Source of the DNA: Nocardioides ochotonae
GTDB taxonomy: Bacteria; Actinomycetota; Actinomycetes; Propionibacteriales; Nocardioidaceae
NCBI RefSeq assembly: GCF_011420305.2
Contig: NZ_CP061769.1
Coordinates: forward strand, 3,831,001-3,895,000
Length of the DNA: 64,000 bases
Direction of reading: 5' to 3'
Made by a program: the position numbers and the translations under genes
Notes under the pieces: generated by a model
What the model saw: only the letters and a program-made list of their open reading frames with translations
The model's database searches: none
What the model was told of the DNA's origin: nothing
Shown here: positions 3,922-14,732 of the stretch, piece by piece
How positions within the stretch are numbered: the stretch's first letter is position 1
Layout: each line of letters opens with the position of its first letter

Positions 3922-3985
3922 GGTAGTTCGTGACGTTGGGGACTGTGGAGAGCGTTGTCCACAGTCCCTCGCGTCACGAACTACC
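3922..3985. repeat. 28-bp imperfect inverted repeat between convergent genes
   Basis: Left arm 3922-3949 and right arm 3958-3985 match at 25 of 28 positions around an 8-base loop. The arms begin GGTAGTTCGTGACG. It lies between the ends of the coiled-coil gene and rmlCD, so it could stop transcription from both sides, but no T-run follows. The outer part resembles the palindromes at 12635 and 13858 (TAGTyCG followed by an AC pair). Confidence 0.75.
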
Positions 3986-11530: not shown

Positions 11531-12538
11531 GTGTCCGCAACCCTCGCGCTGGTCATCGCGGTCGTCGTCGTCGCCTTGGTCTTCGACTACACCAACGGGT
11601 TCCACGACGCCGCCAACGCGATCGCCACATCCGTCTCGACGCGCGCGCTGACCCCTCGGGTCGCGCTCGGCATGGCCGCGGTCATGAACTTCGTCGGCGC
11701 CTTCCTGGGCCAGGAGATCGCCAACACCGTCGCCGGAGTCATCTCCGTCTCAGCGAACTCACACGGCCTGGTCATCGTGATGGCCGGCCTGCTCGGTGCG
11801 ATCACCTGGAACCTGGTGACCTGGTACTACGGCCTGCCCTCCTCGTCCTCCCACGCCCTCATCGGCGGCCTGGTCGGCGCTGCGCTGGCCTCCGGGTCGT
11901 ACGTCAAGTGGAGCGCGATCGTCGACAAGGTCCTGCTCCCGATGATCGCCTCGCCGATCTTCGGCTTCATGGCCGCGTTCGCCTTCATGCTCGGCATCAT
12001 GTGGGTCTTCCGGCGCCGCAACCCGCACCGCACGCAGCGCGGGTTCCGCATCGCCCAGACCGTCTCCGCGGCCGCGATGGCGCTGGGCCACGGTCTGCAG
12101 GACGCCCAGAAGACGATGGGTGTCATCTTCCTGGCGCTGCTCACCGGTGGCTACGCCACCGCCGGCGACCCCCTGCCGCTGTGGGTCATCCTCGCCGCGG
12201 CGGCCGCCATCTCGGCCGGCACCTGGGCCGGTGGCTGGCGGATCATGCGCACCCTCGGGCGCCGCATCATCCACCTCGACCCAGCCCGCGGCTTCGCCTC
12301 CGAGACGATCGCCGCCGGTGTCCTCTACACCACCGCGTTCGCCTTCGAGGCCCCCATCTCCACCACCCACACGATCACCTCCGCGGTGATGGGTGCCGGC
12401 GCCACCAAGCGCTTCTCCGCCGTCCGCTGGGGCGTCGCCCGCTCCATCGTCGCCGCCTGGGTGCTCACCTTCCCGATGGCCGGCGCCGTCGCCGCGGTGC
12501 TCTACTGGATCTGCAAGTACGTCTTCCAGCTGCCGTGA
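11531..12538 (+). CDS. pit: Low-affinity inorganic phosphate transporter (PiT family)
   Basis: 335 residues with about ten membrane segments. The two PiT signatures are visible: FDYTNGFHDAANAIATSVSTRAL near the N-terminus (here quoted in part, FDYTNGFHDAANA) and, in the second half, AFEAPISTTHTITSAVMGAG. YGLPSSSSHALIGGL is the matching repeat in the first half. It imports phosphate, probably as metal-phosphate with protons. It is co-transcribed with the DUF47 gene and ends in a clear hairpin. Confidence 0.95.
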   Translation: MSATLALVIAVVVVALVFDYTNGFHDAANAIATSVSTRALTPRVALGMAAVMNFVGAFLGQEIANTVAGVISVSANSHGLVIVMAGLLGAITWNLVTWYYGLPSSSSHALIGGLVGAALASGSYVKWSAIVDKVLLPMIASPIFGFMAAFAFMLGIMWVFRRRNPHRTQRGFRIAQTVSAAAMALGHGLQDAQKTMGVIFLALLTGGYATAGDPLPLWVILAAAAAISAGTWAGGWRIMRTLGRRIIHLDPARGFASETIAAGVLYTTAFAFEAPISTTHTITSAVMGAGATKRFSAVRWGVARSIVAAWVLTFPMAGAVAAVLYWICKYVFQLP

Positions 12539-12566
12539 GGCTCGCTCTCCTCTGAGAGAGCTGCTG

Positions 12567-12606
12567 ACACACAAGGACCGTCGGGTGACCGGCGGTCCTT
12601 GTGTGT
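12567..12606 (+). terminator. Terminator after pit
   Basis: A 14-bp perfect stem (ACACACAAGGACCG at 12567-12580, its complement at 12593-12606) with a 12-base loop, 28 bases after the pit stop, followed by TTGTG. Confidence 0.8.
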
Positions 12607-12634
12607 TTGTGGGGGGGTGTGGCCGGCGCGATCC

Positions 12635-12698
12635 GGATAGTCCGACACATGAGGGTCGTGAATCCCGGTTTTCACGACCCTCCTGTGTCGGACTATCC
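12635..12698. repeat. Palindrome copy 1 beside the DUF559-like gene
   Basis: Arms 12635-12662 and 12671-12698 match at 27 of 28 positions around an 8-base loop. The arm starts GGATAGTCCGACACA. The right arm supplies the stop codon (TAG, complement at 12693-12695) of the nuclease gene. Copy 2 at 13858 repeats the same sequence. Confidence 0.85.
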
Positions 12699-13742
12699 CT
12701 CGGGGCGCCGGTGCCGCAGCAACCGTTCCCGGTCCCAGGGGGTGAGCGCGCGCCGCTGCGCGACCGTCTCGGTCGGGATCCACCACGGCGGACGCGCCAG
12801 GGTCCACCGGCGTTCGGACCCCGGCCGCCGCGAGGCGCGCTGGTACGCCGCGCGCAGCCGGAGCACGAACGCGGCCGGGTTGGCCAGATCGGCCCCCACC
12901 ATCGTCACCGGCTCGAGCCCGTGGGCGCGGAACCTCTCCTCGCGCGCCAGGTCACTGGCCCGCCTGGCGCTGGAGAGGTGGTCCTTGCCGTCGTACTCCC
13001 CCACGACCCCGAGCTCCGCGTCGAGCAGGTCAGGGGTGCCGAGGTGGCGCCCGTCGAGGTCGAAGACCGGGCGGTTGCAACGCGGGCGGGGCATCCCGCC
13101 GGCGTCGGTCCACACCAGGCGCATCGCCGACTCGGTGGGCGCCCACGAGTTCTCATCGGCCAGCGCCAGCGCCGCGCGCAGCTGGGGAACCCCGGTCCAG
13201 GTGCGCAGGCGCCACTGGGTGTAGACCCGACATTCCTCCAACGAGACCAGGTCGGAGTACGCCGCCATGTCGAGCGCCACGACCGCGGCGGCGACGTCCG
13301 GGGCGTGGCGCGCCTCGAAGCACGCCGAGCGCACGGCGGTGGTGACCGGCAGCCCGTCGACCCGGTCGTGGTCGCGTGGGTCGATCCCCTCCTTGCACGG
13401 GACCCAGCGAGGATCCGGGCGGAGGTTGACGTGGGTCGCGAGCACCACCGGCCGGCCGTCGCTCCCGTCGAACCACCGGGCTCCTGCCCAACGGAGCGCC
13501 GCCCACCCCGTGACCGCTCCGTGGGGCCCGAGCACGGCCGCGGCCTCGACGATCCGCTGCTCGACCCGGCCGCTGTCCACGTCGGCGGGCACGTACATCC
13601 CCGCCGAGGTACGCCGCCAGCGCGGCCCGCGGGCCTGCCCGCGCGTCGGGCCGGCCCGCCCGGTGGGGTCGATCGGCACCGGGACCACCACCTCGGGGTG
13701 GCCCGGGTGGACACCGGGACCTGCTCGCTCGACTCGCCGCAC
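12693..13742 (-). CDS. AbiEi-like / DUF559-type putative endonuclease
   Basis: Up to 349 residues. The N-terminal part (GPRWRRTSAGMYVPADVD, then VTGWAALRWAGARWFDG) resembles the AbiEi-type antitoxin head common in actinobacteria. The C-terminal third has GTPDLLDAELGVVGEYDGK, an Asp followed by Glu-x-Asp-x-Lys, matching the PD-(D/E)XK core of DUF559/Vsr-like nucleases. The GTG at 13742 is the longest start; a later one near 13690 is possible. The stop codon lies inside a palindrome, and a second copy of that palindrome lies upstream of the gene. It sits between pit and pstB, splitting an otherwise phosphate-related block. The biological role is unknown; a DNA nick or strand-break enzyme acting on the palindrome is a hypothesis. 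Confidence 0.75.
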   Translation of the reverse strand: MRRVERAGPGVHPGHPEVVVPVPIDPTGRAGPTRGQARGPRWRRTSAGMYVPADVDSGRVEQRIVEAAAVLGPHGAVTGWAALRWAGARWFDGSDGRPVVLATHVNLRPDPRWVPCKEGIDPRDHDRVDGLPVTTAVRSACFEARHAPDVAAAVVALDMAAYSDLVSLEECRVYTQWRLRTWTGVPQLRAALALADENSWAPTESAMRLVWTDAGGMPRPRCNRPVFDLDGRHLGTPDLLDAELGVVGEYDGKDHLSSARRASDLAREERFRAHGLEPVTMVGADLANPAAFVLRLRAAYQRASRRPGSERRWTLARPPWWIPTETVAQRRALTPWDRERLLRHRRPEG

Positions 13743-13857
13743 CCGCCGAGCCTGCGTCCGGCGCGGCCCCTCCCGGGCGCCTCGCCCACAGGCTCCCCCG
13801 GCGTACGACCGGGAGGGCGGGGTGGGGACGACTAGTGGCTCGGAGTCGCCCCCAGGC

Positions 13858-13919
13858 GATAGTCCGACACACCAGGGTCGTGAATCGGGCGAAAGACGAC
13901 CCTGGTGTGGCGGACTATC
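13858..13919. repeat. Palindrome copy 2 beside the DUF559-like gene
   Basis: Arms 13858-13881 and 13896-13919 match at 23 of 24 positions around a 14-base loop. The left arm and its continuation share 27 of 29 bases with copy 1 (12636-12664), in the same orientation, 1222 bases apart. It lies 34 bases beyond the pstB stop and may also end pst transcription. Confidence 0.85.
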
Positions 13920-13952
13920 CCCTCACGTCGCCCGACGAGCCCCCGACCCACC

Positions 13953-14732
<780 letters not shown>

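Follow-up and report, generated by a model that had tools for sequence, protein, structure and literature searches.

The putative nuclease gene described here and the palindrome at each of its ends probably form one unit of a nuclease-palindrome partnership, resembling RAYT/REP systems or homing endonucleases in its way of working and built on an unrelated enzyme. The gene lies in a stretch of 64,000 nucleotides (hereafter the window), which is drawn from the 4.26-Mb contig of Nocardioides ochotonae (bases 3831001-3895000). Our comparison of homologues shows that this nuclease family is recurrently bracketed by matching palindromes of about 50-70 bp, and that it is the arrangement which is conserved, not the palindrome sequence. 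A broader reading, which in our judgement falls just on the favourable side of even, is that the RAYT/REP way of life has here arisen a second time, independently, and that EDxHD/DUF559-type nucleases of Actinomycetes each maintain and disperse, lineage by lineage, their own palindrome of about 60 bp, both changing together, with many mutually ignoring families in one genus.

A sequence-only reading of the window had pointed to two palindromes at the ends of a single gene, and they are present where it placed them (Table 1): copy 1 has 27/28 pairs and an 8-nt loop, and copy 2 has 26/28 pairs and a 14-nt loop. The two are far beyond chance, standing at the top of a ranking of 66 inverted repeats in the window and folding as DNA with -30.8 kcal/mol (z -11.7 against shuffles) for copy 1 and -28.0 kcal/mol (z -9.6) for copy 2. 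The letters also bear out that 27 of the 29 positions of the core are common to both copies, and that the gene ends within a palindrome, its stop codon (12693-12695) being the TAG of copy 1. Both palindromes have orthologues in a related genome (G018), that of copy 1 differing in sequence, and an Rfam search returned five matches, all to microRNA-precursor models below gathering scores. The gene does split a phosphate block, as had been read from the sequence: its two neighbours are a pit-type transporter (E 6e-92 to its Pfam model) and an ABC ATPase gene, which we take to be pstB, a name that goes beyond its Pfam match. A separate terminator-like hairpin was seen at window 12564-12609, directly after pit and beside the palindrome.

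Table 1. Features around the nuclease gene, in window positions
Feature	Position	Strand	Remarks
pit-type phosphate transporter	11531..12538	+	convergent neighbour; PF01384; control gene in the flank test
palindrome copy 1	12635..12698	.	lies at the 3' end of the nuclease gene, whose stop codon it provides; element itself about 12636-12697
AbiEi/DUF559-type putative nuclease gene	12693..13742	-	349 aa
palindrome copy 2	13854..13923	.	lies past the end of the ABC ATPase gene and before the start of the nuclease gene; element itself about 13858-13919
ABC ATPase, read as pstB	13953..14732	-	neighbour on the other side; Pfam match ABC_tran

The window protein by itself has no match in Pfam, NCBIfam or PADLOC at E<=0.1. 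Its relatives were aligned (A1, 67 sequences with the window protein included), leaving out 13 of the 80 loci described below as broken, truncated, fused or weak rows, L179, L181 and L190 among them. Within A1 the three best PADLOC AbiEi models are matched by 30, 26 and 23 members (E<=0.001), and the Pfam families MTES_1575, DUF559 and AbiEi_1 by 5, 3 and 2 (E<=0.01). The AbiEi/DUF559 label of the sequence-only reading is, on these matches, valid for the family as a whole and not for the window protein alone, which stays below threshold. E204, D238, H255, D264 and W313 are invariant in all 67 sequences, while E249 is kept in 53 and D251 in 50. A PDB profile search gave no match at E<=1, so there is no solved relative at that threshold, and a single-sequence AlphaFold model of the window protein (pLDDT 36) was too poor for a structure search; the assignment to a nuclease fold is thus drawn from the weak family hits and the invariant residues. 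A tblastn search for carriage of the gene on plasmids found no match.

Thirteen copies of a 58-base palindrome core occur in the genome of origin (G000), 11 of them away from the nuclease gene. The element measures 62 bp with its conserved GA/TC ends and has a sharp boundary, conservation ending two bases past TAGT and the flanks being unrelated. All 17 single-arm matches with at most 3 mismatches in this genome lie inside these palindromes, which gave no sign of a larger element with the arm for its terminal repeat, and flanking direct repeats were no more frequent than in shuffles (13, 17 and 10 copies), giving no sign of target-site duplication. In an alignment of 30 copies from two species (A2), 91.9% of stem cells are paired against 87.5% in shuffles, and 45 stem cells have changed on both sides against 21.7, while further pair types are not raised (12 against 11.1). 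The pattern by which the copies of A2 were selected holds columns 1-7 and 52-58 constant, so the invariance of these columns there is by construction.

When sought by its sequence, the window palindrome was found in 2 of 58 genomes including its own, that is, in one relative of 57, whereas nuclease homologues are present in 49 of the 58, with the gene adjoining pit in 11 genomes. A contig scan with the palindrome core, which may omit the window's own records, showed that Nocardioides sp. zg-DK7169 carries palindromes; the same scan gave single matches in one Parapedobacter, one Porphyromonadaceae and two Muribaculaceae records, which we take for chance. On these counts the palindrome would seem to have no link to the nuclease, its sequence being restricted to two species and the gene being a long-standing companion of pit. 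That view was overturned by a hairpin scan free of any sequence constraint, which found palindromes flanking most of the nuclease homologues looked at, on one side or both. The search of relatives for the 29-base core, which the sequence-only reading had put forward, accordingly fared in two ways: taken literally it reaches a single relative and would mislead, since the palindrome is private to each nuclease lineage, but the link it was meant to reveal does appear once the sequence is left free. When only the ends are fixed, a pattern search detects equally long palindromes with different stems in 88 of 215 Nocardioides genomes (at least one match), with up to 40 matches per genome; by a count made by eye, which sums to the tally of 88 and draws on the first places given for each genome, 54 genomes have five or more matches, against 7 for a reversed control pattern.

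We then took the two ends of each homologue as the object of comparison, seeking hairpins of at least 16 pairs near both gene ends and calling a pair matched when at least 15 of 20 bases were alike. The places compared number 80 in all: 62 close homologues, being all listed matches with E<1e-30 with the window gene included (59 from the genus and 3 from the wider order), and 18 weaker ones which, like 19 further places outside the genus, were picked from longer lists. A matched palindrome pair stands at both ends of 42 of the 62 close homologues, its sequence varying from gene to gene, and the same script found none at 152 control genes (pit genes 0/30, window ORFs 0/29, neighbouring ORFs in the same loci 0/93). 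Among the 20 close homologues without a pair, 3 have unlike hairpins, 14 have a hairpin at one end only (two of these lie near a contig end, with room of 78 and 240 bases) and 3 have none at either end. In stricter windows, 43 of the 62 have hairpins at both ends and the two flanks are alike in 40 of these 43; comparisons of different genes in those windows are alike in 3.2% of 1770 cases across genomes and in 1/36 within a genome. The arrangement is thinner at a distance: matched pairs occur at 6/18 weaker homologues (12 without) and, outside the genus, at 6/29 best places and 7/19 further ones (35/48 without), in a phylum search that found a homologue in 116 of 396 genomes. The genome of origin itself has a second, distant homologue (L202, G000:C1:1998600-2003000) whose sole hairpin, on the 5' side, is a different one, and a third with an internal stop codon and no hairpin. 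A distant second homologue in G018 (L212) likewise shows a different hairpin on its 5' side only.

The palindromes are specific to their nuclease lineage. The two flanks of one gene are alike at a mean of 18.1 of 20 bases, as against 11.3 for flanks of different genes across genomes and 11.5 within one genome, and paralogues within a genome mostly differ, 16 of 18 pairs scoring at most 14/20 and the others 15 and 17. Palindrome similarity correlates with nuclease identity (Mantel r 0.38, 0/2000 permutations), and the partial correlation given pit identity, our measure of genome relatedness, is also 0.38 (0/2000; 31 genes), while the reverse partial correlation with genome relatedness is 0.10 (84/2000; 31 genes). 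Alike palindromes are found in 1% of 169 pairs of genes below 35% protein identity, in 68% of 19 pairs at 60-70% and in 83% of 6 pairs above 70%. This shows that palindrome similarity tracks nuclease identity and not genome relatedness, and that the palindromes diverge in step with the nuclease.

Copies dispersed away from the nuclease gene tend to follow the same rule. One homologue in G014 has a palindrome found at 15 places, 13 of which are not at that gene, and the one dispersed copy looked at in each of G026 and G012 agrees with that genome's own nuclease at 22/22, the next best score being 16. G024 has two close paralogues and 24 dispersed palindromes, of which 15 were listed: nine match one paralogue or the other at 21-22/22 (three to one, six to the other), and six match no nuclease flank well (<=18/22). 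The fixed ends raise all scores in this genome, and among the six sites assigned to one paralogue, two also reach 20 with a flank from a different genome. The six sites without a good match carry a third palindrome family (TGACGAACGGCAGG... and like; L285, L286), which agrees with neither of the two close homologues. In the cases tested, then, dispersed copies are shown to belong to the palindromes of the genome's own nucleases, with orphans. The link also served for prediction: in two genomes previously unexamined for the nuclease gene (G061 and G069), like palindromes 1.2 kb apart enclose a homologue in 2/2 cases (E 4.5e-141 and 1.6e-116), while none is enclosed by two unlike palindromes at that spacing in G024 or by a pair separated by 8.5 kb in G087. 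According to a crude codon-composition gene caller, 71 dispersed copies lie between convergent (28), co-directional (31) or divergent (7) genes, within genes (3) or in unknown context (2), background gaps being convergent in 27, co-directional in 58 and divergent in 21 cases; the copies are thus mostly intergenic, leaning to 3' ends.

These results bear on the proposal, made from the sequence alone, of a RAYT-like palindrome-plus-nuclease unit, which is supported; that such a unit spreads or maintains its palindromes we infer with good support. The outcomes that might have spoken against it are not what we found: off-gene copies, in the cases tested, are of the gene's own family and not a widespread repeat without link to the nuclease; other loci of the family do have palindromes, in matched pairs at 42 of the 62; and relatives that carry the gene have palindromes of their own sequence.

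Turnover of the copies was followed between G000 and G018, which share seven orthologous palindrome positions within aligned blocks that are 89-92% identical. These orthologous palindromes have a mean identity of 76% (77% when scored like the rest) against 76.5% for non-orthologous ones and 79-80% for copies of the same genome, which fits copying or correction between the copies of one genome. Three of the seven nonetheless resemble their orthologue more than they do the average paralogue, which makes homogenisation partial at best. Nuclease homologues occur at many loci with no one fixed homing site. Adjacency to pit requires 7 changes on the tree, of which starred branches force at least 6 (L179 and L181 being included in trimmed form), yet it is clustered (0/500 shuffles as low), so that much of the inheritance is vertical. 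No clean new insertion was seen in the copies and sites compared, and in one empty-site comparison with conserved flanks, for a second palindrome family (G018:C24:60118), the exact boundary is ambiguous. At another locus of that genome (L075, G018:C24:71514-72864) two palindromes that agree at 57/58 bases enclose a gene whose translation reads as SDR-type, and the syntenic site in G000 has one palindrome copy and a different gene; here palindromes seem to bracket gained or exchanged DNA.

We infer that the protein recognises its palindrome, cuts it and causes it to be copied by repair. It might bind the whole palindrome of about 60 bp as a symmetric dimer and cut at or near it; repair from another copy would then tend to homogenise the copies and could occasionally place the palindrome, and the gene with it, at a new site. 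The whole would work like REP/RAYT or like homing endonuclease drive, an EDxHD-like enzyme taking the place of the tyrosine (HUH) transposase. The EDxHD homing endonuclease I-Bth0305I is reported to form dimers on its target site, which spans nearly 60 bp (PMC3943268). E204, D238, H255 and D264 occur in the same order as the EDxHD residues, onto which they may map, and that target is as long as our palindrome, so that a dimer on a 60-bp palindrome would be the natural picture. Unlike such homing enzymes, the family here has no fixed insertion site, its putative target being a dispersed symmetric repeat, and its homologues are on bacterial chromosomes, with 0/67 members of A1 matching PHROGs phage families.

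The likeness to REP/RAYT is one of arrangement. In three reports (PMC3733652, PMC3116915, PMC2817692), the RAYT gene is described as flanked by palindromes, of which there are several families, with copies mostly downstream of coding regions. Here too an enzyme gene lies between its own palindromes (42/62 homologues, 0/152 controls), and gene-free copies are dispersed (11/13 in G000, 13/15 in G014). The enzyme, however, is unrelated to the Y1 tyrosine transposase; the repeat is one near-perfect palindrome of about 60 bp where REPs are tagged and 20-40 bp long; and there are up to 40 pattern matches per genome where REPs usually exceed 100 copies. The absence of an excess of target-site duplications also sets the palindromes apart from insertion sequences and MITEs. 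With AbiE type IV toxin-antitoxin systems the family shares its AbiEi profile matches, but no AbiEii gene is found among the two neighbours at the window locus, nuclease-like residues are conserved and palindromes stand on both sides. Weak Pfam matches (3 and 5 of 67 members) relate it to the PD-(D/E)XK-type DUF559 and MTES_1575 families, although the window protein is below threshold and our searches of open papers found none that links either family to palindromes. In open-access literature we found no report linking DUF559/AbiEi-type proteins to palindromes, nor of such palindromes in Nocardioides.

Could something else mobilise the palindromes, the nuclease gene being an element that homes into them and so duplicates them? 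We regard this as rather unlikely. Some insertion sequences insert into REPs, and the gene read as SDR-type in G018 between near-identical palindromes indicates that they can bracket other DNA; but it is the nuclease, not the genome, that palindrome similarity follows, each of the two paralogues in G024 has its own dispersed family, and the RAYT, the sole alternative mobiliser sought, is nearly absent from the genus. That reading, too, would require the protein to recognise its own palindrome.

Two further readings would give the palindromes a role in expression. AbiEi antitoxins recognise and bind inverted repeats situated upstream of the operon that encodes them, and up to 30/67 aligned members match a PADLOC AbiEi model, so the protein might be an AbiEi-type regulator with the palindromes as operators for autoregulation and a regulon; the palindrome at the 3' end as well, the rarity of dispersed copies between divergent genes (7/71), neighbours that are pit and an ABC ATPase with no AbiEii gene, and never-varying residues that are the acids and histidine of a nuclease-like motif plus one tryptophan make this distinctly improbable. 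It is very improbable, in our estimate, that the palindromes are standardised terminators or RNA-stability hairpins which insulate a harmful nuclease gene. Dispersed copies do lean to 3' ends and are mostly intergenic, and changes on both sides of the stem preserve its pairing, with further pair types no more numerous than in shuffles; yet a scan of 12500-14000 allowing loops of 3-8 only found no terminator-like site, no T-run follows either window palindrome by eye, and a terminator gives no reason for a lineage-private sequence, for the matching upstream copy or for the lack of any pair at the 152 control genes.

If the nuclease-palindrome partnership is real, a second enzyme class has the same genomic signature as the RAYTs, which would mean that such partnerships evolve repeatedly; to our knowledge REP sequences have one partner enzyme class, the tyrosine transposases. 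It would also give a function to part of the large DUF559/AbiEi-like protein family, and the roughly forty natural pairs of nuclease and palindrome of about 60 bp (42) would be a ready series for studying the co-evolution of DNA recognition.

A RAYT was ruled out as the mobiliser of the palindromes: the Y1_Tnp transposase (PF01797) has no match in the genome of origin, and a Y1 transposase was found in 1 of 209 Nocardioides genomes. This sole RAYT/IS200-type gene is at G161 C78:12861-13172 (L264), in an incomplete assembly.

The window holds a second palindrome family at 3922-3985 (TAGTTCGTGACGTT...), which recurs in the genome of origin at 1.93, 1.955, 3.72 and, by reading, 2.40 Mb, and is present in G018; no known nuclease homologue is beside any of these places, and it is perhaps an orphaned family. 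REPs have an unpaired GTAG or CGTC tag at one end; several palindrome families here start with GTAG, which in this second family pairs with the other end, and other families start otherwise. As a post hoc observation, all 13 copies of the first family in G000 are confined to the stretches next to the contig ends (3.08-4.26 and 0-0.48 Mb), which make up about 39% of the chromosome, and four of them lie within 15 kb at 3.767-3.782 Mb.
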